Source: Peptostreptococcaceae bacterium
GTDB lineage: Bacteria > Bacillota > Clostridia > Peptostreptococcales > Peptostreptococcaceae
Assembly (NCBI GenBank): GCA_025210335.1
Contig: JAOARY010000067.1
Location: 124,001-188,000, forward strand
DNA: 64,000 bases
Reading direction: 5' to 3'
Position 1 is the first letter of the stretch. Each line of letters starts with the position of its first letter. The position numbers were made by a program, and so were the translations under genes. The notes under the pieces were generated by a model. It ran no database searches. It saw only the letters and a list, made by a program, of their open reading frames with translations, and was not told where the DNA came from. Shown in pieces: positions 1 to 39,898 of this stretch.

Positions 1-3000
1 AACTATATTATCCCAATCAATTTTATAAATACCATAAGATGATCTTTTTATTTCATCCAATATATTTTCATTGATTTCTAAATTACTTGGATCTAAATAA
101 TTTTTATTAATTCTATTGTCAACTTTATAAATTTTGTCATCTTTAAAATCTATAAATATCGCTTCATAAGCATTAATGATTATAGACAAACCTTTTAAAT
201 ATCTAAACATAAATTCATCTTTATTTATTTCATAATTTAATATCTTATTCATATCTTCTATAAAATTCACTATATCAATTGCTAAAGAAGTATCTTTTGT
301 ATTGTTCTTTATATAATTGTTTTCTTGGATTTCAAGTACATCTTCTTCCCATCTTACTATTCTATTTCGCCCTTCTTTTTTAGCTTTATAAAGTGCATTA
401 TCAGCATTTTTTAATATTTCGTGACCATCTGTTGCATCTATAGGATAAACAGACATCCCTATACTTACTGTTATACTCCTTTTATTTGGAGAATATAAAT
501 TATTATATATATGTTTTCTAATCCTATCTCCTATTGCTAAACCTTCTTTTAATGATGTATTTGGTAGCAATAAGAAAAATTCTTCTCCTCCATATCTACA
601 AAATAAATCACCATCTCTTATGCTTTCTTTTACCAATTTAGAAAATTGCTTCAATACATAATCTCCAAACTGATGTCCAAATTTATCATTTATATTCTTA
701 AAATGATCTAAATCCATAATAAATATACAAGACTCATTTTTATAGGTTTTTAAATTATTTAAAACATGTTCCTCTAAATATTTTCTATTATAAGCTCCTG
801 TTAATTTATCTAAAAAAGAGTAAGTTTTAAATTTATAGTTTTGTACTAATAAAGATATTAAATTATTTAATTTCTCTAATTTCTCAAATAAATCATCATT
901 AAAATTATTTAATATTTTATCTGTTTCTAAATATAAATATGCTTTTATATTTCTATTTTGTCTTTTTTCTTTTAGATTTTTATTTGAAAAATAAATAGGT
1001 AAGCATATAATTGCTTTTATATCAAAATTACTACTAAAACTTTCATACGTTCTTGAAGAATCTAAACAATTTATACTAAAAGTTCTTTTGGTGTAGCTAA
1101 CTTCACTTAAAATTCTTTGTATAGTATGGTTTAAATTATCTTCCATAAAGTCTTTACCACCACTAATAATATCAAATTTGCCATCTTCTTCTATTATTAA
1201 TAGTCCTTTTGTTGCATATGATAAAGATTCTATATAATTCAATATCAAATCAATATTTTTTTTAGTATCATCTTTAAAATTTCCTATAAGATCATATATA
1301 TCATTAATATTATTTGCCTTTTCAGTGTATAATTGTTTTATATTTTCTTTTAAAACCTTGTTATTTAATACCTCATTCATAAAACTTATATCTACAAAAT
1401 TCCTGTTGAATATATCAACCTTTGCAATTTCATCTTTTGTACAATTTATATCTCTTAATTCCTTATATCTATCTAAATATTTTAGTTTTTTAATTTTACA
1501 AATACTCTTTTTAATATTATTTATGTCAATAAAATTTTCCCGTTCATTATCTTCTACGTTTTCAAGCAAACTTTCTATTTTAATTGCACCTTCTAAATAA
1601 TAATTTATAGAATCGAAATAATTATTATTTTTAAAATAATAATCACCAAGCATTATATTTGCAAACCAATAAACTCTATTATTTTCTAATTTTTTACTGA
1701 TTTCTAATACCTGTTTTAGATGATATTCCTTTCTTTTATCTTCGTAATGTAAACAAAGCATGTACTCTTTTTTCAAAAGCACATAATCATTATCTTCTGA
1801 CCCTCTAGAGTATTCTAAAAACTTTTTCAAAAAATGATCTGATTTTAAACCAAGTATATGAGATGTGTAAAATAAATGATGATATAAATTTAATTTTTCT
1901 CTTTTATTTTTAATTTTTTTTATCAAATATTCTATCTCATTTAAAATCACCTTACTACTATCCTCTTTTAAATATAATTTTAAATAATACTGAATTATAT
2001 CATAATGGATTTTGACTCTATTATTGAATTTTATTTTGCTATAATTTAATTGACTTTCTTTAAATCCTTTTTTAAAATTTCCAAATAACAAATCTACAAT
2101 TGCACTTAATCTATAATATTCACCAATCCATCTACCTTGATTTGGATACTTTTCTAACTCTTTTTTTGCTTTATTATAGTATTTGTAACCCTGTTTATAC
2201 AAATTATTTTCAAAGAATATATTTGCTAATATCACATATGATACAAACAAATAAGTCTGCATACTATTACCATTAATCTCTCTTATAACATCTTGTATAT
2301 GCTGTGCCGATTTTTTATATTCTAAAGTATAAAAACTAATATAAGCTAAATATATTTTTGACTTTATTTTTGTATAGTTAATACCATGAATTATAGATAA
2401 ATTTAAAGCTCTATTTAAGAAATCTATGGATTTATCAAAATTTTGCTCATAATTCAAAGTTATTTCACTACATAATATCAAACTTTCACATACTCCAAAT
2501 AAATACTCAGCTTTATAATATAGTTTTAAACTCTCATTTAAATACTCCAATGATTTTTTATAATCTCCTATTTCTAACTCTATTTTTGATTTTATATAAA
2601 GAATTTTCCCTTTGTGTTTAAAATCCGCACTTTCAAATAAATAATTTAACCCTTCTTTTGTTGTTTCTAATTTTTTATAATCCTCTTTTCTTAAATAATA
2701 TCTAACAATATTATTATAATATTCTATTTTTCCATGGTTATAAGAAAATTCTTCTAATAATTTTTCTACTTTTTGCAAATAAATAAGTGCATAATTCAAA
2801 AAATTACTATTTATATAAAGAGCTATTATCCTATTTAATATATCTACTCTATCCTTATATAAATTTTTTTCAAACACTATCTCATAAGCTTCTTCATAAA
2901 AATAAATGGATTTAGCATTATTCCAAACTAAAAAATATAATTCCCCAAGTTCTTTTGCTATTTCAAACTTTCTTTCTCTTTCTTCTATCAAATAATATGC

Positions 3001-5040
3001 TTTTTCATAATATTTGATGGCTTCATCTCTTATTTTTAAATTTTTCATTTTTTTTGCCATTAATATTATATATTTTAATAATTCCTCTTTTTCATTTGAT
3101 TTTTCAAGTTGATATATTATCTCATCATCCTTTAATAAATCCTTATCTTCATATATGTTTTTTAACGATATTATTATTTTCTTATGAATATTTATTTTAT
3201 TTGAATCCGATATATTTTTATAAATATTATTTTTTATATTTTTTTTATAAAAATCATATGCATATCCCAAATCTTGAACTTTTTTATTTATAAAACCTTT
3301 AGATATTAAATTTTTTAAATGATCAAAATAATCAAAATCAAAATTGCTAAGCAATTCTTTTACTATATCTTCTTCTATAGGATTTTTAAATGATGATAGA
3401 TATTTTAAAATTTCATATTCATTTATATTTAAAGTTTTTAATTTTTCTTCATAATCTCCTTCAAAAAAATCATAAATTAGATTTTCTTCTTTAGCTTTAT
3501 TAGTATTCCAAATAAATTTATTTTCATCAAAATAAATCAAATTATTTTGAATTAATTTGTCAATCATAAATAATATCGATTTTGGATTACCATAAGTTTC
3601 TTTATATATCAATGTAGCAAATTCATCTAAATCCTGATGAGTATTAAATAAATTTCTTAAAAATTCTATAGTTGTATTTAATGTAAGTGTTCTTATATCT
3701 ATTGTTTGTGTATAAATATTTTTTAAAATTTTTCTTATATCATTTTTTATTTTTCTATCTATACTGCATATAAAAATATTTTTTATTTGATTATTTTTAT
3801 TGTAATTTAAATATTTTAACAGTTCTAATGAAAAATCATCTATATATTTTATATCATCTATCAAAAATATTCTAAAACTATCATTTAAATTATCTTGTAT
3901 GATTTCATTTAATCGTTCTAGTGATTTTAAATCATTTATATTCAATAGACCCTCTTTGTAATTTTTAATTAAATCTTTTTCATAATTTGTTAAATCTTTT
4001 GTTTTCAATATACAATCTAGAGTATTTTCAAAAATCTTTTTCCTATTAAACGATTTTATATTTCCATAAGTATCTACTATTAAATTATCATAACTATTAA
4101 AACCATGAAAATTTAATATCTTTTTTAATTCCAATAAAAATCTAGTTTTTCCAATACCATAATCACCTTTTACAAAAAATATTTTATTATCAATAGTGTC
4201 TTCCTTTGCATCTTTTATATTATCCAATACTATTTTTAATTCTCTTTCGTTATTTATATACTCTGTATTTTTATTTACTTTATTAAAAAAATCTTTTAAT
4301 TTAAAATCATTGCTTTCATCAAATAAGTCTTGGACTAAATTTATAAAATCTTTTGCATTTTTATATTTTTTATAAAAATTTATATCATTTAATATCTCTA
4401 TTAATTCATGTATCTTATTTTCTAATCTAATACTTAAGTCTAAACTCTTCCCTAATTCACTTAATATATTTTTTAAATTCAAAACATCTATATATTGTTT
4501 AGGATCGTTTAAAATACTTTTTAAGCCCTTTAAGTTATAATCATAATTATTTAAATAATTTTTAATATGCTTTGAAAATAAATCTTGTAAATATAATTCA
4601 TCTTCAACCATATAAAAATCTTCTAGTTTTAAGTCCATATAATTATAATTTGAAGTTTTTATATAAATCATGATTTTTATTATTTTAGTAAATATCTCAT
4701 AAAAATTATCATCATTTATCTCCATACCATCCAACGAAATTTTATTATCTTTTATTTCACATGTATATAAATATCTATCCTCCTCAACAATTTCACCATC
4801 TATTCTTGTGATTTTAGAAAGATCATAAAATTTTAGCATAAAATCATTATTAAAATATGTAGTTTTTAAAAGCTCCTCTCTATACATATCTTCAAAATTA
4901 CTTGAAATAGAATTTACATTTAATATTTTTAGCTCACAAATGAAATTATCATTGTATAAATCTAAAACCCTGTAAGTAGATATGAAAGGTTTTTCTTCTA
5001 TTAAGTTTAGTATTTTATATTTATCATTTATTATTTTCAA
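1..5040 (-). CDS. Giant signalling protein: kinase-like, AAA ATPase, TPR, GAF-like and GGDEF domains (3' end outside window)
   Basis: I translated 1680 codons without a stop from a TTG at 5040 (GAGGTGAAAGGGA just upstream); the frame stays open to base 1, so the C-terminus is missing. Residues 1 to about 220 resemble a Ser/Thr kinase fold but are degenerate: a beta3-like lysine (ELKIL, about K38) and MDLKLED near 135 replace the usual HRDLKxxN, and there is no glycine loop. A Walker A motif GDYGIGKT lies near 290 and a Walker B-like FLIDDI near 393, followed by a long helical TPR-like region (about 620-1150) and a GAF-like region (about 1220-1350). The GGDEF domain (about 1395-1555) has an intact GGEEF site near 1482 and an RDGD inhibitory-site motif before it, so it should make c-di-GMP and be product-inhibited. 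The last 120 residues may start another sensor domain. The ligand is unknown. Confidence 0.85.
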   Translation of the reverse strand, partial: MKIINDKYKILNLIEEKPFISTYRVLDLYNDNFICELKILNVNSISSNFEDMYREELLKTTYFNNDFMLKFYDLSKITRIDGEIVEEDRYLYTCEIKDNKISLDGMEINDDNFYEIFTKIIKIMIYIKTSNYNYMDLKLEDFYMVEDELYLQDLFSKHIKNYLNNYDYNLKGLKSILNDPKQYIDVLNLKNILSELGKSLDLSIRLENKIHELIEILNDINFYKKYKNAKDFINLVQDLFDESNDFKLKDFFNKVNKNTEYINNERELKIVLDNIKDAKEDTIDNKIFFVKGDYGIGKTRFLLELKKILNFHGFNSYDNLIVDTYGNIKSFNRKKIFENTLDCILKTKDLTNYEKDLIKNYKEGLLNINDLKSLERLNEIIQDNLNDSFRIFLIDDIKYIDDFSLELLKYLNYNKNNQIKNIFICSIDRKIKNDIRKILKNIYTQTIDIRTLTLNTTIEFLRNLFNTHQDLDEFATLIYKETYGNPKSILFMIDKLIQNNLIYFDENKFIWNTNKAKEENLIYDFFEGDYEEKLKTLNINEYEILKYLSSFKNPIEEDIVKELLSNFDFDYFDHLKNLISKGFINKKVQDLGYAYDFYKKNIKNNIYKNISDSNKINIHKKIIISLKNIYEDKDLLKDDEIIYQLEKSNEKEELLKYIILMAKKMKNLKIRDEAIKYYEKAYYLIEERERKFEIAKELGELYFLVWNNAKSIYFYEEAYEIVFEKNLYKDRVDILNRIIALYINSNFLNYALIYLQKVEKLLEEFSYNHGKIEYYNNIVRYYLRKEDYKKLETTKEGLNYLFESADFKHKGKILYIKSKIELEIGDYKKSLEYLNESLKLYYKAEYLFGVCESLILCSEITLNYEQNFDKSIDFLNRALNLSIIHGINYTKIKSKIYLAYISFYTLEYKKSAQHIQDVIREINGNSMQTYLFVSYVILANIFFENNLYKQGYKYYNKAKKELEKYPNQGRWIGEYYRLSAIVDLLFGNFKKGFKESQLNYSKIKFNNRVKIHYDIIQYYLKLYLKEDSSKVILNEIEYLIKKIKNKREKLNLYHHLFYTSHILGLKSDHFLKKFLEYSRGSEDNDYVLLKKEYMLCLHYEDKRKEYHLKQVLEISKKLENNRVYWFANIMLGDYYFKNNNYFDSINYYLEGAIKIESLLENVEDNERENFIDINNIKKSICKIKKLKYLDRYKELRDINCTKDEIAKVDIFNRNFVDISFMNEVLNNKVLKENIKQLYTEKANNINDIYDLIGNFKDDTKKNIDLILNYIESLSYATKGLLIIEEDGKFDIISGGKDFMEDNLNHTIQRILSEVSYTKRTFSINCLDSSRTYESFSSNFDIKAIICLPIYFSNKNLKEKRQNRNIKAYLYLETDKILNNFNDDLFEKLEKLNNLISLLVQNYKFKTYSFLDKLTGAYNRKYLEEHVLNNLKTYKNESCIFIMDLDHFKNINDKFGHQFGDYVLKQFSKLVKESIRDGDLFCRYGGEEFFLLLPNTSLKEGLAIGDRIRKHIYNNLYSPNKRSITVSIGMSVYPIDATDGHEILKNADNALYKAKKEGRNRIVRWEEDVLEIQENNYIKNNTKDTSLAIDIVNFIEDMNKILNYEINKDEFMFRYLKGLSIIINAYEAIFIDFKDDKIYKVDNRINKNYLDPSNLEINENILDEIKRSSYGIYKIDWDNIV

Positions 5041-10306: not shown

Positions 10307-11206
10307 CTATTGTCCATTAGCCACAAGAGCACCTAATGCAATTGAATAAAGCTTTGTTTCATGAGTATCCGCTCTAGAAACTAATACAACAGGTTTTTTA
10401 GCTCCCATTATAACTCCTGCTGATTTTGCATTTGCCATATACGTTAATGTTTTTCCTATTCCATTACCCATTTCTATATTTGGCACTAGTAGTATATCTA
10501 CATCTCCTGAAACTTCACTTTTAAAATTCTTTATTTTACTTGCTTCGTTAGAAATAGCCAAGTCAAAAGCTAAAGGACCTTCGACTATTACATCTTTTTC
10601 ATCTTCAAAAAATTCTTGTAATTTTCTTGCATCAATCGTTGATGGCATTTTTTCATTAACTTTTTCTTTAGCAGAAAGACAAGCTACTTTAATTTTATCC
10701 AATCCAAATACACTTGCTGTTTCTATTGAATTTTTTAGAATTTTTTTCTTGCCTTCAAAATCAGGATTTATATTCATACCACCATCAGTTAACATTATTA
10801 ATTTATGATAATTAGGCACTTCATAAATCATAACATGACTAAGTAAACTATCTTTTCTAAGCCCATATTCTTTATTTAAAACCTCTTTTAATAATATTGC
10901 TGTATCCAAAAGCCCTTTCATAACAAAATCAGCTTCATCTGATGAAACTAATTTAACACTCACCATTGCAGATTCTTTTAGTGAAGTTGATGATATAACT
11001 CTAATATTTTCTAAATCAAATCCAATCTCTTTTGCATATTCTATTATTTTCTTTTCATCTCCAACTAAAATAGGTTCTATTACTCCAATTTCATATGCAT
11101 CTTTTACAGCTTTTAAAACCTCATAATCTTCTGCACTTGCAACTGCAAGTCTTGCTTTTTTTAAATTTTTCGACTTTTCTAAAATATCTTCTAATTTCTT
11201 TATCAT
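10307..11206 (-). CDS. ptb: Phosphate butyryltransferase (Ptb-like)
   Basis: 299 aa, the length of clostridial phosphate butyryltransferase, and the whole sequence follows the phosphate acetyl/butyryltransferase family. Features are the N-terminal ARLAVASAEDYEVLKAV segment, KGLLDTAILLKEVLN near 95, LTDGGMNINP near 140 and a C-terminal GAKKPVVLVSRADTHETK. It exchanges CoA for phosphate on butyryl-CoA to give butyryl phosphate, normally used with butyrate kinase for ATP; no kinase gene is in the window. ATG with AGGGGG upstream. A TTGATA-18-TAACAT promoter-like pair lies on the minus strand near 11258-11287. A related branched-chain or acetyl substrate is possible. Confidence 0.85.
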   Translation of the reverse strand: MIKKLEDILEKSKNLKKARLAVASAEDYEVLKAVKDAYEIGVIEPILVGDEKKIIEYAKEIGFDLENIRVISSTSLKESAMVSVKLVSSDEADFVMKGLLDTAILLKEVLNKEYGLRKDSLLSHVMIYEVPNYHKLIMLTDGGMNINPDFEGKKKILKNSIETASVFGLDKIKVACLSAKEKVNEKMPSTIDARKLQEFFEDEKDVIVEGPLAFDLAISNEASKIKNFKSEVSGDVDILLVPNIEMGNGIGKTLTYMANAKSAGVIMGAKKPVVLVSRADTHETKLYSIALGALVANGQ

Positions 11207-11349
11207 AATAACCCCCTAGTAGCGTTAAAATTTAAAAACCTTTTCCCTTTTATGTTACCATATATAAATAATAAGTATCAACGAAAATAAAGAAATCAAA
11301 AATTAAATATAATTAATTTATGGTAAAATTTAATAAAGAGGTGATATTT

Positions 11350-11637
11350 ATGATTATAGAAATCGATGATAAATTAAAAAAATATTTAAAAGATAAAAAT
11401 ATTTCAAATTTAACAATTGAATTAGCCGAACTCAAAACTTGCTGAATTCAACCTGATATCCCTTTAGTTAAAAGGGTTAAGCCTTCTAATTTAGAAAAAT
11501 ATAAATATTTAAAAATTGATGATTTAAATATTTATATTGATAAAGACATAAAAACTTTAAATAATAAAATTATTTTAAAACTAAAAAATTATTTTTTCTT
11601 TAAAGAAATCATAGCAAAAGGCGTAAAAGAATTTTAA
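11350..11637 (+). CDS. Small selenoprotein, CC/Se-motif (HesB-like) family, in-frame UGA as Sec32
   Basis: My translation from ATG 11350 (AGAGGTGATATTT upstream) gives 95 residues to TAA at 11635-11637, with one in-frame TGA at 11443-11445 directly after a cysteine (ELKTC-U-IQPDIP). A Cys-Sec or Cys-Cys pair followed by a proline-rich segment and a C-terminal IYIDK/FFFKE region is typical of small HesB-like CC/Se-motif (seleno)proteins known from clostridia. A compact stem-loop starts 15 nt after the UGA, as required of a bacterial SECIS. The reading frame is coherent on both sides of the TGA, unlike a decayed gene. The function of the family is unknown, probably redox. It is divergent from ptb. 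selA, selB, selD and tRNA-Sec are not in the window. A standard gene caller would miss or truncate it. Confidence 0.82.
11443..11476 (+). promoter_or_regulatory. Sec UGA codon and bacterial SECIS-like hairpin
   Basis: TGA at 11443-11445 is followed after 14 nt by CCCTTT (11460-11465), loop AGTTA and AAAGGG (11471-11476). The 6-bp stem, short loop with G among its first two bases, and spacing fit the described bacterial SECIS consensus that recruits SelB. Confidence 0.75.
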
Positions 11638-11647
11638 TAGTATAAAA

Positions 11648-11687
11648 AAATAAATGTCTTAAATTATATAATTCAAGACATTTATTT
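11648..11687. terminator. Bidirectional terminator between selenoprotein and RCC1 gene
   Basis: AAATAAATGTCTT and AAGACATTTATTT form a 13-bp stem with A- and T-runs on the two sides, serving the two convergent genes. Confidence 0.85.
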
Positions 11688-11690
11688 TAA

Positions 11691-13268
11691 CTATTTTGCA
11701 TATTTACAATTATATATATATTCTATACTTTGCGTTATACTATCCCAATAATATATAAAATCATCTGTTGTAAGTATATAAATACCAGAATCATTAATCA
11801 CTATATCTTTTGCAAATTTCGCCAATTCTATTTTTTCAGGTTCCCTAATTATAATCTCATTTTTACCAAATGTTCCCCAAACAAATACTTTTCCATTTTC
11901 ACTAATACCACAACTTATGCTTTGCTTAGCATATATTTTCTTTATAGGAGGAACACCTAAAATTTGTACAGGTTTTAAATGACTTCTTCCTTTAACTCCA
12001 AGTTGATAATCTTTATTATTTCCAAAACCAAATAACATTCCCTTTGAGTTTAAAACAATGCTATAATCCTTAGCACAAGCTATTTTAATAACATTTTCAA
12101 CAGCTATTAATATTGGTCTGAATTTATTTATTTTACTTCCATCACCAAGTTGTCCATATGTGTTACATCCAAAGCCAAATAAGTTTCCTTTTATATCCAC
12201 AGCTAAAGTATGTCCATCACCCAAAGAAACATCTATGATATTTTTTAAATCTTCAACTATAGTTGGTTTTTCTCTATTTGCATTAGTTCCATCACCAAGT
12301 TGTCCATATGTATTACACCCAAATGAATATAAATCTCCATTCATCGTTTTTATGCAATTGAAGTCTTTTCCTGCATATATATTTTTAACTCTATTTATAG
12401 TTTTTAATTTCTGTATATCGTAAACATCCACATTATTTCCATTTCCTAGTTGACCATGATTATTTTTCCCATAGATGTATACATCACCATTATAATTTAA
12501 ATATAATATATGCTTTTCTCCAAAACTTATGCTTTTTATGTTTTCTATTTTTTTAACTAATCTTAGATCATATTTTTCATTAGAATCAGGTAATAGCATA
12601 TGTATATTTCCATTATTTTTTAAAATATATAATTGCTCATCTTTTAGAAAAATTCTTTTATACGAAATATCTTCTATTACCTCTATTTTTTTACTTACAA
12701 ATTCAGACCAAATTCCATCTTTATCCTTTATTCTCAATTTTACTTCATATTCCCCAGGTTCTCTATAAAAATCTTTTTTATTTACCCACTCTTCATCTTT
12801 TATTATGCCTTCTTTTGAATATGATTTAATTGAACTTAATTTAACCTTTGTTGTTGTAAATATATTTCCTTTTGGATTTATTGAAATCTGAGCTTTTGGT
12901 TCTTTTAAGTTCATATATTCCTTATAATATAACACTACATTATCTTTATTTTTTAAAAATTTATCTTTAAAAAGTTCCTTTAAAAATACTTTTGTTTCAT
13001 TTGCTAAACTTTTTTTAACAATTAAACCTCTTTTATCACTTGTTAACTCATAATACTTCGGTTTATAATTTAAGTCTTTTATATAATCTTCTAAACTTAT
13101 TAAATCTAAAGGTAGTGAATTCTTTATTCTTTTATATAATTCTATTGCTTTACCGATTTCTTTATAATCTTGTACTATGAGTATATGATCTTTTTCTACT
13201 TTATCATTTCTTAAATATAAAAGACTTCCTAACATAAATATTGTAAATACAATAAGATAAACTTCCAT
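11691..13268 (-). CDS. Membrane-anchored RCC1-repeat protein with pseudopilin-like N-terminus
   Basis: 525 aa. Residues 3-20 form one hydrophobic helix without basic residues. They are followed by a segment (YKEIGKAIELYKRIKNSLP, near 34-52) that looks like the region after the helix in type II pseudopilins, although no prepilin peptidase site (G before F-T-L-I-E) is present. Residues about 110-195 resemble a PKD/Ig-like domain. From about 200 to the end there are five or six RCC1 repeats with units such as FGCNTYGQLGDGT. RCC1 propellers mediate binding; no enzyme site is visible. The protein is probably exported with one anchor and the propeller outside. ATG start with AAGGAATGATATC upstream. 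It is followed by a bidirectional terminator and lies 78 bp after cca. Its function is unknown. Confidence 0.75.
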   Translation of the reverse strand: MEVYLIVFTIFMLGSLLYLRNDKVEKDHILIVQDYKEIGKAIELYKRIKNSLPLDLISLEDYIKDLNYKPKYYELTSDKRGLIVKKSLANETKVFLKELFKDKFLKNKDNVVLYYKEYMNLKEPKAQISINPKGNIFTTTKVKLSSIKSYSKEGIIKDEEWVNKKDFYREPGEYEVKLRIKDKDGIWSEFVSKKIEVIEDISYKRIFLKDEQLYILKNNGNIHMLLPDSNEKYDLRLVKKIENIKSISFGEKHILYLNYNGDVYIYGKNNHGQLGNGNNVDVYDIQKLKTINRVKNIYAGKDFNCIKTMNGDLYSFGCNTYGQLGDGTNANREKPTIVEDLKNIIDVSLGDGHTLAVDIKGNLFGFGCNTYGQLGDGSKINKFRPILIAVENVIKIACAKDYSIVLNSKGMLFGFGNNKDYQLGVKGRSHLKPVQILGVPPIKKIYAKQSISCGISENGKVFVWGTFGKNEIIIREPEKIELAKFAKDIVINDSGIYILTTDDFIYYWDSITQSIEYIYNCKYAK

Positions 13269-39778: not shown

Positions 39779-39790
39779 AAATTCTAAAAA

Positions 39791-39898
39791 ATTCATCTGC
39801 CAGACAAAGTCTGCTGGAATTAGCACCACAGATTTAAAATCTAGGTTGCCGAGCTTCATAGGGCCAGTCCCTCCACTACTCTTGATAAATAAAATATT
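39791..39898 (-). ncRNA. SAM-I (S-box) riboswitch aptamer
   Basis: Reading the minus strand, conserved S-box blocks appear in order: TATCAAGAG, GAGGGACTGGCCC, TGAAGCTCGGCAACC, GGTGCTAATTCCAGCA and GCAGATGAA. These match the P1/P2 kink-turn, the SAM-binding core and the J4/1 region of SAM-I. The terminator follows directly. Confidence 0.95.

Follow-up and report, generated by a model that had tools for sequence, protein, structure and literature searches.

The window, a 64,000-nucleotide stretch of a Peptostreptococcaceae bacterium genome (GCA_025210335.1, contig JAOARY010000067.1, positions 124,001–188,000), holds at 11350–11637 (+ strand) a frame that ends in TAA and is uninterrupted apart from one TGA, codon 32 (11443–11445, +), directly after the TGC codon of Cys31. 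With U placed at the TGA, the product is a 95-residue protein, MIIEIDDKLKKYLKDKNISNLTIELAELKTCUIQPDIPLVKRVKPSNLEKYKYLKIDDLNIYIDKDIKTLNNKIILKLKNYFFFKEIIAKGVKEF, in which the motif reads CUIQ; one cysteine and one selenocysteine (Sec) are present in the whole sequence. A Shine-Dalgarno sequence, GAGGTG (11338–11343, +), lies 6 nt 5′ of the ATG, and a SECIS-type hairpin, CCCUUU-AGUUA-AAAGGG (11460–11476, +), follows the TGA. The original prediction had named both the 95-codon frame with its single in-frame TGA after Cys31 and the good ribosome binding site, and both were confirmed at these positions.

The gene stands alone, with a divergent phosphate butyryltransferase-like gene (10307–11206, −) on one side and a convergent gene of 525 residues (11691–13268, −) on the other; the latter gave 0 matches in NCBIfam and, judged by eye, contains RCC1-like repeats. 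A strong hairpin with A/U-rich flanks (11647–11688, assigned to neither strand; fold energy −13.9 kcal/mol, z −5.64) is located between the two convergent genes and is probably a transcription terminator common to both; it is absent from the list of a terminator scan that demands G-C pairs. Among non-overlapped frames in the window, only one other reads through a TGA (2955–3293), and it was rejected as a gene because it is antisense to a 1680-codon open frame and of low complexity.

Membership in the CC/Se family and the residue at codon 32

The product matches the NCBIfam model NF041239 ('CC/Se motif family (seleno)protein') with 48.6 bits over residues 1–91, exceeding the model's curated threshold of 40 bits; the match spans the TGA and covers positions 1–90 of the 91 in the profile, i.e. 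it is full-length. The protein also shares with the family a length of about 95 residues and a Sec or Cys at the motif position (C31-U32), which contains the family's one invariant column. This kind of gene is already known: the CC/Se family was first predicted in Moorella, is represented in NCBIfam, and is catalogued in a 2026 review of prokaryotic selenoproteins (PMC13188914), where the family entry gives the motif as CxxU, as against Cys-Sec (CU) in the window protein. Since the annotation model NF041239 exists, a Sec-aware pipeline that uses it should find the gene; for standard callers, which split or miss such genes at the TGA, the locus is a well-supported case.

That the frame encodes a coherent protein on both sides of the TGA, as had been proposed, was borne out with a leave-one-out profile of 23 homologues from which the window gene was omitted. 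When this profile was searched against 879 stop-to-stop segments of the window, the post-TGA segment (46.5 bits, E about 1.7e-13 to 4e-13) and the pre-TGA segment (about 18–19 bits, E 1.5e-4) were the best two of the 879, the third best having an E of 0.32. TGA also serves as a regular stop codon here, and a rival reading was considered in which translation ends at codon 32, leaving a leader peptide of 31 codons, and the conserved frame beyond it is a gene of its own. This reading is extremely improbable, as the two parts fit a single uninterrupted family model in the right sequence, the Cys-form homologues read through as one continuous protein, and 0 start-to-stop frames of at least 60 codons start past the TGA (+ strand, 11446–11637).

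The homologues sought in the original prediction, with Cys-Cys or Cys-Sec aligned at the TGA, were found among the closest named relatives, which align without gaps at codon 32. The homologue of Thermotalea metallivorans (L050) has Cys-Sec (TGTTGA) at the same codon, and those of Geosporobacter subterraneus, Geosporobacter ferrireducens and Anaerosolibacter carboniphilus (L051–L053) have Cys-Cys (TGCTGT). Position 32 is the sole invariant column in an alignment of 24 members, and the motif variants among relatives include UC, CU, CxxU and a lone U.

These Cys-Cys homologues are a single base away from the window gene at codon 32, and the gene is a single copy in the one sampled genome of its genus, as might be expected of a recent pseudogene in which the second Cys codon (TGC/TGT) of a Cys-Cys form mutated to TGA, truncating the protein at 31 residues. 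The TGA at the same codon of the Thermotalea Sec form and the intact remainder of the frame argue against decay, as do the covarying hairpin and the capacity of the host to decode Sec, both described below; we consider a pseudogene very unlikely. The gene is almost certainly a functional bacterial member of the CC/Se motif family that decodes Sec.

Across the order, CC/Se members are present in 98 of the 394 genomes sampled, but in only three of the 71 from the taxonomic family of the window genome, all three copies having an in-frame TGA. SelB scored above its cut-off in 65 of the 67 genomes listed with TGA forms, as against 244 of 394 overall (rows compared by hand), and the two TGA-form genomes lacking it are 79% (G114) and 63% (G122) complete. 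In a further genome (G184), SelB is not above the cut-off and none of the three listed CC/Se members has a TGA, as expected for Cys forms. A search of a phage collection returned no match. The genes surrounding the relatives, named by eye, include a peptidase, D-Ala-D-Ala carboxypeptidase-like genes, a tRNA-deaminase-like gene and others; comparison across the relatives revealed no conservation of these neighbourhoods, and gene context therefore gives no functional clue.

The SECIS-type hairpin and selenocysteine decoding in the host

Published criteria for bacterial SECIS elements require a loop of 3–9 nt, a stem of 4–16 bp, a G among the first two loop bases, and a distance of 16–37 nt from the UGA (PMC13188914). 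The window hairpin has a 6 bp stem and a 5 nt loop, which starts 20 nt past the UGA and has G as its second base, so that the suitable spacing and loop G of the original prediction stand. Its fold energy over 58 nt is −7.4 kcal/mol (ensemble −8.97), just short of the limit of −7.5 kcal/mol or lower in the published bacterial SECIS model, and −6.1 kcal/mol over 28 nt; taken over a wide span of sequence, the fold energy is not unusual (z −0.23).

The hairpin exceeds chance expectation: about 0.5–1% of TGAs in the window are followed by a SECIS-type hairpin of equal stability under the same grammar (~1% at −5 kcal/mol or lower), and when the 25 codons past the TGA were recoded synonymously, 0.75% of the variants were as stable as the observed −5.3. 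The window gene and eight homologues of the Sec form keep all six stem pairs: 54 of 54 base-pair cells are standard pairs, and at each position of the stem two or more kinds of pair occur, both arms having changed, i.e. compensatory change. As the eight homologues were chosen for having such hairpins, with loops 20–23 nt past the UGA, this covariation is support and not an independent test. For the UC-motif subgroup (GGATGATGCC; L022–L024, L031 and L034–L037), no hairpin was found under a strict bacterial SECIS grammar, and this subgroup may use a different SECIS shape. An Rfam scan of the window returned no SECIS family match; the sole match was a SAM riboswitch at 39790–39891 (−; 86.7 bits).

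The search for Sec machinery proposed with the original prediction located all four components in the genome: selD, selA (618 bits), selB (360 bits) and tRNA-Sec are clustered within about 8 kb of one contig (C37), with selD just upstream of selA and selB. The selD gene (L048:4575–5612) is itself a selenoprotein gene, reading ASGUAAK through its TGA, and has a SECIS-type hairpin 20 nt past that TGA. Two grdA copies (L068 and L069, on contigs C39 and C71), each with one in-frame TGA, adjoin grdB-like genes; going by these gene matches, glycine reductase is encoded twice in the genome. Because selD contains Sec and the two grdA genes contain TGA, we conclude that the organism uses Sec.

Homology, the machinery and the conservation of the hairpin point to the same route of decoding for the window gene, in which SelB carrying Sec-tRNA(Sec) would bind the hairpin just past the UGA and the ribosome would insert Sec at codon 32, yielding the 95-residue protein.

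Predicted fold and possible role of the Cys-Sec pair

The window protein itself is without any match in Pfam, and a profile search of the sequences of solved structures found nothing. An AlphaFold2 model of the protein (pLDDT 83, five sequences) was compared with known structures using Foldseek, for which the best matches, and the sole credible ones, were all of IscA/SufA/HesB type (probability 1.00, E 5e-3). The nearest structural neighbours of the predicted model are 1x0g, 1r94 and 2d2a; the VIA comparison with IscA (1x0g) gave a Z of 8.2 and an rmsd of 3.0 for 88 of the 95 residues. A Z near 8 is weak alone, but the IscA-like fold is backed by agreement at the sequence level: PF01521, the family of the IscA/SufA A-type Fe-S carriers, gives weak matches in 12 of 24 CC/Se members, and HHalign against eight HesB-like proteins gave a probability of 95.8 (E 7e-9, 84 columns), placing Cys31 on the cysteine of their GCSG motif with Sec32 beside it. 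From the model and the profile–profile comparison, the CC/Se protein is predicted to be a small domain of IscA/HesB-like fold, a link that we did not find stated in the literature in a search that was not exhaustive.

IscA/SufA carriers have three conserved cysteines including a C-terminal CxC, whereas the window protein has no C-terminal Cys. The HesB-like selenoproteins (TIGR01911 / NF038090) share the predicted fold and, in the profile alignment, have a conserved Cys/Sec in the same loop, but they possess a UxGP motif and a C-terminal Cys, both of which the window protein lacks. It gives no match to the TIGR01911 or NF038090 models, and membership of the family TIGR01911 is excluded by this and by its motif, CUIQ rather than UxGP. 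The original prediction of a small HesB-like CC/Se protein thus stands for the CC/Se family (NF041239) and for the predicted fold, and fails for the HesB-like selenoprotein family itself.

In the predicted structure, the vicinal Cys31-Sec32 pair would sit on the loop that bears the first Cys ligand of IscA and, since the C-terminal Cys of the Fe-S carriers is absent, it would be the only thiol/selenol reactive centre of the protein. It may act in thiol redox chemistry, forming a selenenylsulfide and returning to its reduced state, or it may chelate a soft metal, a metalloid or sulfane sulfur, or bind persulfide. Fold and motif lead us to favour, by a little, a redox/sulfane-sulfur role. That the gene encodes Sec but the pair serves as a metal or Fe-S ligand, in a Sec-ligated protein resembling the A-type carriers and not as a redox switch, is conceivable though somewhat doubtful: the IscA/HesB-like fold would suit it, as would a motif that aligns where IscA-type proteins have their first Cys ligand, but the protein lacks IscA's C-terminal CxC ligands and some CC/Se members have Sec alone.

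A broader proposal, which we put forward as speculation and think rather unlikely, is that the CC/Se family is a stripped-down IscA/HesB offshoot in which the three-Cys cluster site has given way to a single vicinal Cys-Sec, Sec-Cys or Cys-Cys pair, forming a new class of selenium-based carrier of soft metals or sulfane sulfur in anaerobic Clostridia. For this widespread selenoprotein family, the predicted tie to the IscA/HesB fold suggests what to assay. The genome also encodes a separate HesB-like protein (L054:1498–1815, contig C78), which scores under the cut-offs of TIGR01911 and NF038090 and is a Cys form with no TGA.
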